Positions 40,396 through 46,368 of a stretch of 64,000 nucleotides of DNA are shown here, piece by piece. The position numbers were made by a program, and so were the translations under genes. The notes under the pieces were generated by a model. It had not been told where the DNA came from, ran no database searches, and saw only the letters and a program-made list of their open reading frames with translations. Origin of the DNA: Pirellula sp. SH-Sr6A (GTDB lineage: Bacteria; Planctomycetota; Planctomycetia; Pirellulales; Pirellulaceae). How positions within the stretch are numbered: the first letter of the stretch is position 1; each line of letters starts with the position of its first letter. The stretch spans positions 1,841,988-1,905,987 of the forward strand of contig NZ_CP011272.1 of the NCBI RefSeq assembly GCF_001610875.1. The letters run 5' to 3'.

Positions 40396-41607
40396 TTACG
40401 GTAATTGAACGTCCAGCCAAACGAGATGGTGGTCGGATGCCTCCTTTATGTCAACCTCCAATGATTTCATCTCCTCGAGGGTTGGCCAAAAGACCCCACC
40501 TCCTGTGATTTTCAGTGTTTGAGAAGGGAGAACGAAATCGACTCGGAGGTTTCCTGGTTCTCGATCATTGAAGTCCCCGGTGTCGTGCTGAGGATCCCCT
40601 TTTTGTTCCACATTCGCACGTTTCTGGAGTTGCGATGCCTCGACGCCGCCGCGACTGCTGGGGATGAAACCGGATTGAATCCTAGGAGACTCGAGCAATT
40701 GCTTGATGGCGGGAGCGGTTCCGGACCCATCGTTCGGATCGGCGTTGAGATCCCCTAAGATCACAAACGGGTCGTCTGCAGTTGCTCCTCCACTTCGGCC
40801 GAGGTCATCGATCAAATAATCCGTGTTGGCAGCGATGTCATGCAGGAATCGTATTTCATCGTGATTGCGGCATCCGTTTCGATCTTCCGGCCCGTCGAAG
40901 ACAGGAGGCGTCGGATGAGCCGCCAAGATCTGTATTCGCTTCGCACCGATGGAAACAGGAACAAGCCAGTGGGATTTCGAGCTCAGTCGCAATCGATTCC
41001 AAATATCGTCCGAATGGTAGGGCTTCCAGGTGTTGGCCTTTCGATCCCCTACGCCGGGTCGCAACGCATCGGGAAGATCCCGCCACAGAAACTTCTGATA
41101 AGTCCTGGCTGCTTCGGTTTGGATGGGATACCTACTAAAGATCACCATCCCGTATTGTCCTGGAAAGGCACCATAGCCCCAGGCATCGTCTGGCCCGTCC
41201 GAAGCCCCGTCGCCATTTAAATCCATACCCGATGGGACACCCGTATTTACGGACCCGACAAATTGATAGGGGTATGGGCGATGGGGTCGGTCGCGATTCG
41301 TGAGGATGGATTCGCTATTGAGATACTGTTCGCGTAGCAAGGTGGCCGTTTTCCCACCGTCGTAATCGACTTCGTTGGCCAGCAACACATCGGGGCTGAC
41401 CCATTGCACGATCGCTGCGATCTTCTTGGCCTGCGCGTCCCCCTCCTGAAGACCCTTTAGTAAATCACCGGGCGCTTTCCGATTCAGCGCCATATTGAAA
41501 GTCGCGATACGAACGCTTCCTTCTTTTGGAGGGTCGATCGCGAAGAGGGAGGAACTGGGGAGCATGAAGGCGAATGAATAGAAGATCTCGCGTGCGAATC
41601 GGATCAT
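40396..41607 (-). CDS. exported endonuclease/exonuclease/phosphatase-family protein
   Basis: A 403-residue protein with a predicted signal peptide (about 1-27). The fold's markers are VRIATFNMALN near the start, a metal-binding glutamate in LLANEVDYDGG, the ILAAHPTPP region and FVILGDLNADPNDGSGT, followed by ASDHHLVWLDV near the end. The superfamily cleaves phosphodiester bonds with Mg2+; secreted members may take up phosphate from DNA or lipids. AGGA lies seven bases before the ATG at 41607. The upstream leader carries a terminator 31 bp before the start. Confidence 0.78.
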   Translation of the reverse strand: MIRFAREIFYSFAFMLPSSSLFAIDPPKEGSVRIATFNMALNRKAPGDLLKGLQEGDAQAKKIAAIVQWVSPDVLLANEVDYDGGKTATLLREQYLNSESILTNRDRPHRPYPYQFVGSVNTGVPSGMDLNGDGASDGPDDAWGYGAFPGQYGMVIFSRYPIQTEAARTYQKFLWRDLPDALRPGVGDRKANTWKPYHSDDIWNRLRLSSKSHWLVPVSIGAKRIQILAAHPTPPVFDGPEDRNGCRNHDEIRFLHDIAANTDYLIDDLGRSGGATADDPFVILGDLNADPNDGSGTAPAIKQLLESPRIQSGFIPSSRGGVEASQLQKRANVEQKGDPQHDTGDFNDREPGNLRVDFVLPSQTLKITGGGVFWPTLEEMKSLEVDIKEASDHHLVWLDVQLP

Positions 41608-41638
41608 AAAGTTCCTATGCCAAATTCCAATCGACCAC

Positions 41639-41680
41639 AAAAAGAACCAGGCCCCGACGTTTTACGACGCCGAGGCCTGG
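41639..41680 (-). terminator. intrinsic terminator in the leader of the minus-strand gene pair
   Basis: On the minus strand, a hairpin with arms 41674-41680 and 41647-41653 (CCAGGCC/GGCCTGG, extended inwards with mismatches) is followed directly by TTCTTTTT (41646-41639). On the plus strand no T-run follows. It lies 31 bp before the exonuclease/phosphatase-family start, so it either ends a separate RNA or acts as an attenuator. Confidence 0.68.
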
Positions 41681-41749
41681 CTTAGGACTAATACCGCTCG
41701 ATGCACAAGGGCCGGGAGGATTTCCAACCGCGACCTTTGTCGATCGAGT

Positions 41750-41805
41750 GGGGTGGAGGCTGCCTGTCACTAGCAGCCCGCCGGCAGACTAGGACGCCTC
41801 ACCCC
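41750..41805 (-). ncRNA. candidate structured leader RNA with competing hairpins
   Basis: Two mutually exclusive folds are visible on the minus strand. One pairs 41750-41760 with 41796-41805 (GGGGTGGAGGC/GCCTCACCCC, one bulge), extended by 41761-41764 with 41783-41786. The other pairs 41758-41763 with 41773-41778 (GGCTGC/GCAGCC). Together with the downstream terminator and the tiny upstream ORF, this is the layout of an attenuator or terminated regulatory RNA. The extent of the RNA is unknown. Confidence 0.5.
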
Positions 41806-41830
41806 CATGGCCAGTACAGAATGATGTCAC
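41789..41830 (-). CDS. candidate 13-codon leader peptide
   Basis: A GTG at 41830 lies six bases after GGAGG in an 11-base perfect complement of the 16S rRNA tail, AAAGGAGGTGA (41844-41834). The ORF reads MTSFCTGHGGEAS and stops at TAG (41791-41789). Its start overlaps the stop of an upstream open frame (TGGTGA). The peptide has no known family. Its ribosome binding site is among the strongest in the window, yet the product is tiny, as expected of a leader peptide. The same frame stays open after the TAG until just before the next gene. Translation is unproven. Confidence 0.35.
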   Translation of the reverse strand: MTSFCTGHGGEAS

Positions 41831-41845
41831 CAGTCACCTCCTTTC

Positions 41846-42170
41846 ACAAGCAGCCAGACCTGCGAATCCTCGAAGCCGAGAACCGGGATTTGCAGGTTCA
41901 GAAACATGCAGCCGCGACGCGTTTCGCAGCACTGCTCCCATTTTATTTCATCCGACCACCAGAAATCAAGAATAGGTTGCGTTATGATTTGAAAAACCTC
42001 GAGCGCGGTCCTGCGGTTTGCCAAGCGAACTGGGCCGTACCGCGTGCGAGCGAAGGCCTTGCACCAAATCTCTCCCTGGCGTGCAGGCAGTAAGGTCCGC
42101 GGTGGACTTTTTCTATTTGGTTGTCTCCTCGATTTAGACCTGCGTGGTCTTGGATTGTTCTGCAACGGAT
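41846..42170. other. intergenic region before the transglutaminase gene
   Basis: About 325 bp with open frames on both strands but no recognisable domain. The minus-strand frame of 112 codons ending at 41827 runs into the leader-peptide ribosome binding site and could be part of the same transcript. I see no clear promoter pair. Confidence 0.35.
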
Positions 42171-45100
42171 ATGGGAATTCGAGTTGCCCTGCATCATCAA
42201 ACTGTCTACGAGTACGATCGGGATGTTCAATTAGGACCTCAAATCGTTCGCCTCCGACCGGCCCCTCATTGCCGGACCCCGGTACTGAGCTACTCGATGA
42301 AGGTGGTGCCCCAAGATCACTTCTGCAATTGGCAACAGGATCCTCAAGGGAACTACATCGCTCGCCTCGTCTTCCCGAAGAAAACGCAAACGTTTTCCAT
42401 TGCCGTCGACTTGATCGCGGATATGACCTCCATCAATCCGTTCGATTTCTTTTTAGAAGCGTACGCGGAGTCGTTCCCTTTCGCTTACGAACCGTGGCTG
42501 CTTAAGGAGCTAGCCCCTTTTTTGATCCAGATCGATTCGAAGCCTGAGCTCGAGGCACTCGATCAATGGCTGGCGAAGGGGAAGATTGCCAAGTTGCGGA
42601 CAATCGACTTGATCACCGAAATCAATCATCGCCTGCAGGAAGATATCCGTTACGAAATTCGTCTGGAGCCCGGCGTGCAATCTCCGCTGGAGACCTTGCA
42701 ACGAAGCTCGGGATCTTGTCGCGATTCGGCTTGGCTATTGGTTCACTTGTTCCGACGCTTAGGTCTGGCAGCGCGGTTTGCGTCTGGCTACCTCATCCAA
42801 TTGGCGACCGATGTCAAATCGCTGGATGGACCGTCCGGCCCAGACAAGGACTTCACCGATCTGCACGCTTGGGCAGAAGTCTATCTGCCTGGCGCCGGAT
42901 GGATCGGACTCGACCCTACTAGCGGATTGCTTTGCGGCGAAGGTCACTTGCCGGTGGCTTGTACCCCTGACCCTTTCACCGCCGCACCCGTGACCGGGTT
43001 GGTAGAACCGGCCGAATGTAAATTCCACTTCGAAATGTCGGTCCAACGTTTGGTCGAAGACCCAAGAACGACCAAGCCCTACACGCAGGATCAATGGGAA
43101 CGCATTCATCAGTTGGGACTCCGTGTCGACGAGCAATTGAAACAAGATGATGTCCGTTTGACATTCGGAGGAGAACCGACCTTCGTATCCATGGACGACA
43201 TGGATGGCCCGGAATGGAACTCCGATGCGGTGGGACCGACCAAACGAGTGCTCTCAGGGCAACTCATCAAACGCCTTCGAGAGGTATTTTCCCCAGGTGC
43301 GTTTCTCCACTACGGGGAAGGGAAATGGTACCCAGGCGAGTCGCTTCCTCGCTGGGCTTTGACCTGCATGTGGCGTTTAGACGGCCAACCCATTTGGCAA
43401 AATACCGAATGGATCGCTGACGAATCACGTAACTACGGATTCACCTTCAAACAAGCGAGACTCTTCTCCGAATGTTTGGCCGAGATGCTAGGCGTCGATC
43501 CGAAATGGCTGATGCCCGCCTACGAAGACGTGTACTATTATCTCTGGAGAGAACAACGTCTCCCGATCAACATCAAACCCTGGGACCCTCGACTCGAGGA
43601 CGAGGAAGAGCGGAGCCGGCTCTCGCGCGTTTTCACGCGAGGACTCAACAAACCGGTAGGGGTGATTTTGCCCATTCGTCGGCAATGGTGGCAAGGCCAA
43701 GGTAAGTGGGCCAGTGGCCCATGGCCGGTCCGTCCAGAGAAACTCTTATTGCTCCCCGGAGACTCCTCGGTCGGACTGCGATTACCTCTCGACACACTCC
43801 CCTTTTCTCCTGCCACGGGGATGCATGGAGTGATTCCGGCCGACCCCTTTTCACAACGACCTCCTTTGCCCTCACCCGTTCCTGTTGTCTCACAAGTCAA
43901 ACAAGATCGGCACGAACTGGAACACCGCCCCAACCGAATGGGCTGGGGATCGGTTGTACCGGTCGAAATGGACGAAGATCATTGGTGGTCCGAACAGCAA
44001 GCCGCCAAACGTGAACAAGACCCTGCACCGGAGCATGTCGTGCGCACCGCCTTGTGCGTCGAACCTCGCGAAGGCCGACTGTATGTGTTCATGCCCCCAA
44101 CGGAAACACTCGAAGACTATCTCGACCTCCTCTGGTCGATCGAGCAGGTGGCCATCGATCTCGAGATACCGGTTGTTATCGAAGGATACTTGCCTCCGAG
44201 AGACCACCGCGTGCAGATGATCAAAGTGACGCCTGACCCGGGGGTGATCGAGGTCAACATCCATCCCGCGAGCTCGTGGACCGAACTGGTCGACAACACG
44301 ACCAAACTCTACGACGAGGCGAGACAATGCCGTTTAGCGACGGAAAAATTTGATCTGGATGGCAAGCATACCGGCACAGGAGGTGGCAATCACATCGTGA
44401 TGGGCGGTCCGACTCCTTGGGATAGTCCATTTCTTCGAGCTCCCCACGTCCTTCGGTCCCTCATCGCGTTTTGGATCAATCATCCCTCGCTGAGCTATTT
44501 GTTCAGCAATCGATTTATCGGCCCCACGAGTCAAGCGCCGCGAGCCGACGAAGGTAGACACGATGCGATTTACGAGTTGCAGACCGCGTTGGAGCAAATC
44601 CCTAAGCGAGGTGAGGACTGTCCCCCTTGGTTGGTCGATCGGATTCTCCGAAACTTGCTTATCGATTTGACCGGCAACACCCATCGCGCGGAAATCTGCA
44701 TCGACAAGCTCTATTCTCCCGACAGTTCCACCGGACGGCTTGGACTGGTCGAGCTCCGTGGATTCGAGATGCCCCCCCATGCCCAAATGAGCTTGGCCAC
44801 CCAATTGCTCGTTCGGTGCTTGGTCGCCACATTCTGGCGGCAGGAGTACAGCGAGCCTTTGGTCCGTTGGGATAACGATCTTCATGATCGCTACATGCTC
44901 CCGCATTACCTTTGGAAGGACTTTCAATCGGTGCTACACACTTTGCAGTCCGCAGGCTGGAACTGGGAAGAGACGTGGTTTGCATCGCACTACGAGTTCC
45001 GTTTCCCACCTATCGGGATGGTCGAGTACGACAACGTCGGCATCCACTTGCGAACCGCCATCGAGCCATGGTATGTCATGGGTGAAGAGCCTGCAGGAGG

Positions 45101-45548
45101 AGGCACGGTCCGTTTTGTCGACTCGAGCGTGGAGCGACTAGAGGTCAAAGCCTTGGGTCTCGATCCCGCTCGCCATCGCCTTCTATGCAATGGACTTCAG
45201 CTACCTGTTCAGCCAACGGGGGGTCCGAGCGAGTATGTGTGCGGAGTGCGTTATCGCGCATGGCAACCCCCGAGCTGCCTGCATCCGACCATCGCCGTCC
45301 ACACTCCGTTGGTGTTCGAATTGTGGGATGTATCGGGCGGACGATCGCTGGGAGGTTGTACCTACCATGTGGGGCATCCGGGCGGACGGAACTACGCCAC
45401 ATTCCCAGTCAACGCGTTGGAAGCCGAAGCTCGCCGGACAGCGCGATTTATCAAAGTGGGGCAGAGTACGGGACCGATCCACCCCAAGATGCCTCGCCCC
45501 AATCCTGAGTTTCCATCAACATTGGACCTCCGCCGGGAACGCTTCTAG
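42171..45548 (+). CDS. transglutaminase-like protein fused to DUF2126
   Basis: A 1125-residue cytoplasmic protein. Residues 1-90 form the bacterial transglutaminase N-domain (RVALHHQTVYEYDRDVQLGP). The transglutaminase core follows, with Cys183 in SGSCRDS, His232 in DLHAWAE and Asp248 in LDPTSG. From about residue 310 the DUF2126 region begins (LTFGGEPTFVSMDDMDGPEWN) and runs to near the C-terminus. Such fusions are widespread and often stand near other proteins of a peptide or amide-forming system with circularly-permuted ATP-grasp and alpha-E proteins, but none are adjacent here. I chose ATG 42171; an in-frame GTG at 42144 would add nine residues. Confidence 0.85.
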   Translation: MGIRVALHHQTVYEYDRDVQLGPQIVRLRPAPHCRTPVLSYSMKVVPQDHFCNWQQDPQGNYIARLVFPKKTQTFSIAVDLIADMTSINPFDFFLEAYAESFPFAYEPWLLKELAPFLIQIDSKPELEALDQWLAKGKIAKLRTIDLITEINHRLQEDIRYEIRLEPGVQSPLETLQRSSGSCRDSAWLLVHLFRRLGLAARFASGYLIQLATDVKSLDGPSGPDKDFTDLHAWAEVYLPGAGWIGLDPTSGLLCGEGHLPVACTPDPFTAAPVTGLVEPAECKFHFEMSVQRLVEDPRTTKPYTQDQWERIHQLGLRVDEQLKQDDVRLTFGGEPTFVSMDDMDGPEWNSDAVGPTKRVLSGQLIKRLREVFSPGAFLHYGEGKWYPGESLPRWALTCMWRLDGQPIWQNTEWIADESRNYGFTFKQARLFSECLAEMLGVDPKWLMPAYEDVYYYLWREQRLPINIKPWDPRLEDEEERSRLSRVFTRGLNKPVGVILPIRRQWWQGQGKWASGPWPVRPEKLLLLPGDSSVGLRLPLDTLPFSPATGMHGVIPADPFSQRPPLPSPVPVVSQVKQDRHELEHRPNRMGWGSVVPVEMDEDHWWSEQQAAKREQDPAPEHVVRTALCVEPREGRLYVFMPPTETLEDYLDLLWSIEQVAIDLEIPVVIEGYLPPRDHRVQMIKVTPDPGVIEVNIHPASSWTELVDNTTKLYDEARQCRLATEKFDLDGKHTGTGGGNHIVMGGPTPWDSPFLRAPHVLRSLIAFWINHPSLSYLFSNRFIGPTSQAPRADEGRHDAIYELQTALEQIPKRGEDCPPWLVDRILRNLLIDLTGNTHRAEICIDKLYSPDSSTGRLGLVELRGFEMPPHAQMSLATQLLVRCLVATFWRQEYSEPLVRWDNDLHDRYMLPHYLWKDFQSVLHTLQSAGWNWEETWFASHYEFRFPPIGMVEYDNVGIHLRTAIEPWYVMGEEPAGGGTVRFVDSSVERLEVKALGLDPARHRLLCNGLQLPVQPTGGPSEYVCGVRYRAWQPPSCLHPTIAVHTPLVFELWDVSGGRSLGGCTYHVGHPGGRNYATFPVNALEAEARRTARFIKVGQSTGPIHPKMPRPNPEFPSTLDLRRERF

Positions 45549-45633: not shown

Positions 45634-46368
45634 TTGGACATTCGAATTGCAGAGAACGCGAGCGAGTTGGGTAAGAATGCAGGCTTGCTCGCAGCAGAAA
45701 TTCTTCGAGGTGCTTTGAAATCGCAACCGCGAGCCCGCGTCATCGTTGCCACCGGAGCCAGCCAATTCGAAACCTTGGCCACCCTGACGAGCGAACCTGG
45801 GATCGATTGGAACCGTGTGGATGGTTTCCACTTGGATGAATACATTGGCCTCAGTGCAGATCATCCTGCCAGCTTCTGCGGGTACTTGCGAGATCGCTTT
45901 GTTACCAAGGTTCCGATCGGATCCTTTCACTATCTGAATGGATTGGGAGATCCCGCGCACGTCATCGCGGGGGCGAGCCAAGCATTGCGCGCCGCCCCTA
46001 TCGATCTCGCGTTGATCGGCATAGGTGAGAATGGTCACTTGGCGTTTAATGACCCTCCCGCGGATTTTGAGACGACCGAGCAGTACCATATTGTTTCCCT
46101 CGACGAGGCATGTCGACAGCAACAGGTAGGAGAAGGTTGGTTCGCTTCGCTCGCCGATGTTCCAACCCGCGCATTCAGCATGACGATCTCCGCAATCCTC
46201 GCATCCAAAGCGATTGTTTGCAGTGTTCCGGATGAACGAAAGGCCATCGCGGTTCGGAACGCTCTCGAAGGGCCTCTTACACCTGACGTCCCCGCCTCCA
46301 TTCTTCGCAATCACCCAAATCTGACGCTTGTGCTGGACAAAGCGAGCGCATCGAGACTCTCGAAGTAG
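45634..46368 (+). CDS. nagB: glucosamine-6-phosphate deaminase family
   Basis: A 244-residue enzyme with HLDEYIGLSADHPASF and the signature GIGENGHLAFNDPP, which hold the catalytic residues. It converts glucosamine-6-phosphate to fructose-6-phosphate and ammonia, feeding amino sugars into glycolysis. It is somewhat shorter than E. coli NagB (266). The start is TTG at 45634, giving MDIRIAENASE. The 6-phosphogluconolactonase family shares this fold, but the LAFNDPP stretch favours the deaminase. Confidence 0.85.
   Translation: MDIRIAENASELGKNAGLLAAEILRGALKSQPRARVIVATGASQFETLATLTSEPGIDWNRVDGFHLDEYIGLSADHPASFCGYLRDRFVTKVPIGSFHYLNGLGDPAHVIAGASQALRAAPIDLALIGIGENGHLAFNDPPADFETTEQYHIVSLDEACRQQQVGEGWFASLADVPTRAFSMTISAILASKAIVCSVPDERKAIAVRNALEGPLTPDVPASILRNHPNLTLVLDKASASRLSK

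Follow-up and report, generated by a model that had tools for sequence, protein, structure and literature searches.

A probable planctomycete RNA gene with a micro-ORF, its fold probably set by translation, and perhaps a cis leader in some lineages

The dual-function RNAs SgrS/SgrT, SR1/SR1P, and VcdRP are terminated small RNAs carrying a small ORF, as the element described here would be. Leader-peptide attenuators such as those of trp and tna share with it a short ORF, a strong Shine-Dalgarno sequence, and mutually exclusive hairpins so placed that a ribosome at the ORF end would choose between them. Yfr6, or Downstream-peptide RNA, of cyanobacteria resembles it in RNA size (approximately 250 nt), a short ORF, and the pattern of synonymous changes and multiples-of-three indels, as given in the relevant part of the source (PMC2864571). 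In a table row of the same source, the Rhodopirellula-1 motif is listed as a predicted RNA motif in Planctomycetes and also for Proteobacteria, with the second mark 'y' (PMC2864571).

The window, i.e., the whole stretch of DNA that was analyzed, comprises 64,000 nucleotides from Pirellula sp. SH-Sr6A (NZ_CP011272.1, positions 1,841,988 to 1,905,987). A small unit on its minus strand (approximately 41969-41639) consists of a -35/-10 promoter, a 5' hairpin, a complement of the 16S tail, a GTG-initiated ORF, competing hairpins, and an intrinsic terminator. The predicted RNA is approximately 295 nt long, from an inferred start near 41933 to 41639, and the downstream gene begins with an ATG at 41607. 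An initial annotation of this DNA had placed a set of features on the minus strand within about 200 bp (41636..41845), and all of them were present there. That interval contains the ORF, the hairpins, and the terminator, and omits the promoter (41969-41940) and the 5' hairpin (41930-41911). Upstream, a divergent gene (42144-45548, plus strand) combines a DUF2126 amidoligase-like domain with transglutaminase-like domains, and an ORF at 45634-46368 (plus strand) resembles a glucosamine-6-phosphate deaminase-like protein, as judged by eye. The features of the element, with the evidence for each in brackets, are the following:

41964..41969, minus strand: -35 hexamer TTGATT (promoter scan; genus comparison)
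41940..41945, minus strand: -10 hexamer TAAAAT (promoter scan; genus comparison; start site near 41933 inferred)
41911..41930, minus strand: P5, hairpin at the 5' end, loop with a conserved ACGC (covariation, shuffle test)
41834..41844, minus strand: AAAGGAGGTGA, 11-nt perfect complement of the 16S 3' tail, the Shine-Dalgarno sequence (compared with the 16S of the same genome)
41789..41830, minus strand: micro-ORF with GTG start, 13 codons VTSFCTGHGGEAS, and TAG stop (read from the sequence; conserved across loci)
41796..41805, minus strand: 5' strand of P2 (end of the micro-ORF), pairs with 41760-41750 (covariation, fold)
41776..41785, minus strand: P3, hairpin right after the stop with a GGCG loop, GCC GGCG GGC (covariation)
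41773..41779, minus strand: strand s2, common to P3 and the alternative hairpin (covariation, fold calculation)
41750..41763, minus strand: strand s3 and 3' strand of P2, partner of either s2 or the ORF end (covariation, fold calculation)
41697..41748, minus strand: P8, 3' hairpin CTCGAT...ATCGAG with CCTCC at 41719-41715 inside (arms in the window; same-genus alignment)
41639..41682, minus strand: intrinsic terminator with TTCTTTTT (scan; strict terminator-like sites after the stop across loci)

The element is present in a single copy in its genome. With BLASTN, it was detected in 25 of 60 genomes: 23 of the 27 in the genus, counting its own, and 2 of the 33 outside it. A first covariance model, built from 20 loci, matched 160 of 199 family genomes and 128 of 396 order genomes; a second, built from 49 loci, matched 245 of 397 class genomes and 39 of 392 phylum genomes, 36 of those 39 belonging to the class. 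Loci used in the models match by construction, and the second model (R2), whose automatic structure is poor (11 pairs), works mainly as a sequence profile. Conservation in related genomes, on which the initial annotation had staked its reading, is thus clear, as BLASTN and the covariance models match many planctomycete genomes. Each matching family genome had one match, except G162, where two like-reading matches lie at contig ends. A dispersed repeat element, which had also been considered for this locus, was ruled out because of the one copy in the genome and one per genome in relatives. To our knowledge, few single-copy RNA genes span much of a bacterial class.

Nine relatives without a match were searched again, and none gained one (matches in 21 of the 30 genomes of that search). 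Some relatives lack a detectable copy although they are well assembled, among them G069, G088, G101, and G052, and in such genomes the gene can be lost or diverged beyond the model. Three matches fell outside the class: L195 and L196, both weak, have the look of relatives, and L197 was dropped, its sequence looking protein-coding by eye. A pattern scan of named genomes returned 18 contigs, all planctomycete by title or genus, including Rhodopirellula, Roseimaritima, and Neorhodopirellula. For the comparisons below, 137 of 139 loci were kept, 135 of them with distinct cores; besides L197, L146 was removed (the L078 locus, cut at a contig end).

No Rfam 15 family matched the window or the loci of eight relatives at the gathering score. 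The subthreshold matches Scr3202 (E 1.7) and ctRNA_p42d (E 2.9) both lie over the terminator hairpin and were taken as chance. tmRNA was rejected, as the window has no model match and the tmRNA of the genome is elsewhere (C1:1953514-1953873); 6S RNA likewise had no model match in the window or in the eight relatives' loci. A 6S-like match just below the Rfam cut-off was seen at L239 (G037:C6:86620-86838), with 0 of 11 genomes above the cut-off. No published description of the element was found among the literature matches listed.

The predicted transcription signals are conserved. In all 23 same-genus loci, the TTG[AT]TT -35 hexamer, an 18-nt spacer, and a -10 hexamer are kept, and the gap from the -10 hexamer to the 5' hairpin is 7-9 nt. 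The intrinsic terminator, initially placed at 41680-41639, was located at 41682-41639. A strict terminator-like site lies 3' of the micro-ORF stop in 100 of 134 loci, compared with 1 in one shuffle of each (three loci with too little sequence were left out). Plain scans of 4 kb gave three promoter-like and four terminator-like sites, near chance (shuffle means 2.1 and 4.2); therefore, the case for both signals is one of conservation. The 215-nt RNA folds better than 200 of 200 dinucleotide shuffles (z -4.01). By sequence, the element has some of the marks of a dual-function small RNA, namely a predicted promoter and terminator of its own, an intergenic position, and a conserved small ORF. The initially proposed alternative, a regulatory RNA that ends at a terminator and carries a tiny ORF, is supported by the conserved promoter, terminator, and ORF and by the covarying helices described below.

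The 16S gene of the same genome (Rfam RF00177 over L240 15-1515) ends in ...TGGATCACCTCCTTT, and the 11-base complement of the 16S tail that had been noted at 41844-41834 is therefore exact. The 11-mer occurs seven times in the genome, one copy being the complement of the 16S gene itself, and a start codon lies 10-23 nt from its first base only here (14 nt) and at L244 (18 nt). Pairing of the Shine-Dalgarno sequence with a downstream strand is only slightly above shuffles (8.28 vs. 7.25) and was kept out of the core claim. In L100, L118, and other loci outside the genus, a second CUAGU was observed just before GAAAGGAGG, upstream of the Shine-Dalgarno sequence; it is complementary to ACUAG in the ORF and to the upstream ACUAGA, and a further alternative pairing is possible.

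The exact 11-nt complement could suit a decoy for ribosomes or the 16S tail, in which the long Shine-Dalgarno sequence would hold 30S subunits and GATCACC, itself a copy of the 16S tail, would control access in some loci. GATCACC is found downstream in 21 of 137 loci (0.5 in shuffles), but it is a minority feature, absent from the window, and a decoy would have no need of conserved codons or a stop. We regard such a decoy as very improbable.

The 13-codon ORF of the initial annotation, GTG-initiated six bases on, was recovered at 41830-41789, with its start 6 nt past GGAGG and 3 nt past the 11-mer. An ORF of 10-18 codons, starting 9-18 nt from the first G of the Shine-Dalgarno core, was called in all 137 loci; the caller takes the right Shine-Dalgarno sequence, and as it favors RGG-like ends, mere presence is weak evidence. 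An earlier caller had returned ORFs in 133 of the 137 loci, several with misplaced starts. The start codons are GTG (115), TTG (20), and ATG (2), and the stops TAG (60), TAA (41), and TGA (36). The distance from the start to GGTG is 27 nt in 94 of 115 anchored main-type loci and differs from that value by a multiple of three in 19 of the other 21; the two out-of-frame loci, L107 and L210, were mis-anchored on inspection (117 loci used, 2 of them without an anchor, and 20 of distant families left out). Counted by frame, the first stop lies within codons 10-18 in 137 loci for frame 0 (the called frame), in 14 for frame 1, and in 11 for frame 2.

Among 104 loci, Arg is conserved in 89 through five codons (CGA 57, CGG 17, AGG 8, AGA 6, CGT 1), Gln is written as CAA (41) or CAG (37), and the second Gly with four codons. 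The commonest peptide end is SQRGGxA-stop, with a literal QR in 87 of 137 loci; small indels spoil the QRGG end in L073 and L114. Through a 2-nt difference, the peptides of families f21 and f23 end in NQRWL or NQGRLA; other orders read the ORF end in another frame, and the peptide end is thus not universal. Judged by in-frame length changes and synonymous Arg, Gln, Gly, and stop changes, the micro-ORF is conserved as an ORF.

A purely structural RNA, its ORF an accident of conserved sequence, would account for the overlap of ORF codons with paired strands and for the change of codon 7 (Gly/Ser/Cys), which tracks base pairing. It would leave unexplained the length changes in multiples of three, the synonymous Arg changes at first and third codon positions, and the exchange of TAA, TAG, and TGA, and we find it hardly credible.

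The helices were assessed by covariation and shuffling. P5 covaries strongly: both partners have changed in 4 of its 7 pairs, a level that none of 500 shuffles reached, and the stem is at least 7 bp long in 115 of 137 loci (average of 16 loci in shuffles). P3 has 99.3% of cells paired and changes on both sides in all three core pairs. For P2 and P3 together, 94.6% of cells are paired, and two-sided changes occur in 7 of 9 pairs; no shuffle of 500 was as high on four of five measures, and one was on the fifth. The two mutually exclusive hairpins reported initially (41750-41805) were found in the window as 41779-41773/41763-41757 vs. 41805-41796/41760-41750, and both competing helices are kept across loci. 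The alternative helix s2:s3 is paired in 92.3% of cells, and its covariation is weaker, only modest (on the five measures, it was equaled by 10, 39, 4, 39, and 12 of 500 shuffles); its run is at least 6 bp in 100 of 137 loci, with a mean of 6.27 vs. 4.83 in shuffles. P8 occurs in compensated forms in same-genus loci (CTTTCC/GGAAAG and AGCTTGT/ACAAGCT). CTCG..CGAG was present in 19 of 137 loci vs. 5 in shuffles, which is no proof, as the tested region also contains the terminator. A start-codon helix, P0, covaries within the genus and was rejected as a general feature, its run over 137 loci being no longer than in shuffles (4.83 vs. 4.76).

Fold calculations were made for 134 loci (three with P3 under 3 bp were left out). 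In the free RNA, the mean pairing probability was 0.60 for s1:s2 and 0.49 for the ORF end with s3. With a ribosome modeled at the stop, the mean for s2:s3 rose from 0.13 to 0.66 (above 0.5 in 99 of 134 loci), compared with 0.28 when s3 was shuffled; the way this ribosome-bound state is built forces s1:s2 to zero. A full flip (s1:s2 above 0.5 in the free RNA, s2:s3 above 0.5 with the ribosome at the stop) was calculated for 75 of 134 loci. The window copy does not flip: its free s1:s2 and ORF:s3 values are 0.76 and 0.66, and s2:s3 reaches only 0.19 at the stop. The arrangement of leader-peptide attenuators, a short ORF beside mutually exclusive hairpins, is thus present by comparison and fold calculation and weak in the window; in these models, a translation-set fold switch is better supported for the family than for the window copy.

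Taken together, the element is probably a planctomycete gene of dual nature, RNA and micro-ORF, with a fold set by translation, and perhaps a cis leader in some lineages. We assign a probability of roughly 0.5 to the specific reading that this is a single-copy small RNA gene also encoding a translated micropeptide of 10-18 residues, and that its fold reports translation of its own micro-ORF. The exceptional Shine-Dalgarno sequence would draw a ribosome to the GTG or TTG start, and 10-18 codons would be read before the stop. In the ribosome-free RNA, s1 (the strand after the stop) would be paired to s2 and the ORF end to s3. Once a ribosome sits on the stop, it would cover s1 and the ORF end, leaving s2 to pair with s3 by the logic of leader-peptide attenuators. 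The RNA may thus report translation of its own micro-ORF through a change of fold. The output is the weakest step of this explanation.

A plain mini-mRNA, with the peptide of 10-18 residues as the product and hairpins that only tune translation and protect the RNA, is an unlikely alternative. The synonymous changes that keep Arg, Gln, and Gly, the in-frame length changes, and the very strong Shine-Dalgarno sequence would all suit it, but the peptide end shifts frame between orders while the RNA strands persist, and the conserved helices past the stop would be unnecessary for making a peptide.

The gene neighborhood was examined for a possible target. The pair of an exonuclease/phosphatase-family (EEP) gene and uppS, of which the initial annotation had taken the element to be an attenuator, follows it only in the closest clade (the window, L027, and L028; the contig of L026 ends). 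Downstream ORFs of at least 80 codons were taken by length without a gene finder: among 98 loci of the window's order, 17 of them from one genus, 94 had an ORF in reach, the nearest on the same strand in 46 and on the opposite strand in 48. Because downstream neighbors mostly differ in this order, the element is not simply an EEP-uppS attenuator, and that general function was rejected on context, the downstream gene elsewhere in the order differing or pointing the other way.

The commonest downstream family was uppP (PF02673), the gene for undecaprenyl-diphosphate phosphatase, which was nearest in 8 of the 94 loci. It is present in 102 of 110 genomes searched, in one copy in nearly all, and lay within 4 kb of the element in 10 of the 76 genomes matched for both (our own count, the element position lacking for a few), compared with about 0.1 genome expected by chance (our own estimate). 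These 10 genomes represent six genera of the window's family, and, except in G129 with its contig end, uppP lies downstream in the orientation of the element. A gene resembling undecaprenyl phosphate (C55-P) translocases (PF04018) lies beside uppP and the element in four of the six genera; in L114, L147, L263, and L266, two lipid-carrier recycling genes thus stand side by side near the element. As for the initially suggested connection of uppS, and so of lipid-carrier supply, to translation, EEP-uppS is next to the element in the closest clade only, and the lipid-carrier part is kept alive by the six genera with uppP no more than 4 kb away.

In families f21 and f23, which belong to orders other than the window's, the gene directly after the element, on its own strand, encodes DAHP synthase, with which the aromatic pathway begins; this holds for 8 of 8 f21 loci and 5 of 7 f23 loci (L180-L194, 13 of 15). 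A scan for shared families round 60 loci gave no near-over-far excess (9 vs. 10 clusters in at least three loci); its DAHP synthase cluster had 4 loci near and 0 far. In L260 and L277 (genus g70), a gene resembling tryptophanyl-tRNA synthetases by eye lies approximately 1 kb downstream on the same strand. Overall, no neighbor of the element is constant across the window's order; two other families have a constant one, and in part of the window's own family a lipid-carrier gene recurs beside it.

A cis role is kept alive by these recurring genes, and the conserved DAHP synthase and enriched uppP speak against a purely stand-alone role everywhere. A cis leader (attenuator) with a lineage-dependent target (DAHP synthase in f21/f23, uppP in six genera, EEP-uppS in the window's clade) would explain them, the translocase-like gene included. 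Set against it are the near-even strands of the nearest ORFs in the window's order and the finding that, when 60 loci were taken with flanks of up to 10 kb, only 3 had uppP; the uppP cases may also reflect shared ancestry. The DAHP synthase start lies 203-496 nt past the micro-ORF stop in the 12 loci, of 13, in which it could be placed, a strict terminator-like site was found in only 6 of 15 f21/f23 loci, and some micro-ORFs of these families have a Trp codon and others none, with no consistent aromatic codon. As a general account, the cis leader seems quite unlikely.

Under the preferred reading, of a small RNA whose fold reports translation of its micro-ORF, action in trans, through RNA stability, or on its own initiation would be likely in most of the window's order, because no gene follows in a constant position there. 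In lineages with DAHP synthase or uppP next on the same strand, the element may also act as a cis leader. A bolder version, which we hold as doubtful, is a planctomycete-wide RNA sensor of translation: the ribosome on the micro-ORF would throw a three-strand switch, and the whole would be a movable module placed before DAHP synthase, before uppP or uppS, or alone in trans. If so, an attenuator would be able to work without a gene to attenuate. If translation of the micro-ORF sets the fold, the logic of attenuation would be uncoupled from a gene next to it, and DAHP synthase and the lipid-carrier genes, as recurring neighbors, would give a first hint at the pathways. For Planctopirus limnophila, a saturated transposon library is described in which insertions lie 11 bp apart on average (PMC10632474); if this species carries the gene, its essentiality could be read from those existing data.

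Compared with the trp and tna attenuators, the element lacks a constant downstream gene in the window's order and a run of codons for one amino acid, whereas its f21/f23 copies and those attenuators both have a conserved downstream gene. It differs from dual-function small RNAs in that its ORF is only 10-18 codons long and is embedded in the conserved fold, its stop immediately followed by competing helices. The Rhodopirellula-1 motif is, like the element, a planctomycete predicted RNA; compared through its table row, which gives no Rfam accession, identity is neither shown nor excluded (PMC2864571). The Yfr6/Downstream-peptide motif forms a 5' UTR upstream of ORFs with 17-100 residues (PMC2864571), whereas in the present element the ORF lies inside the structured core.
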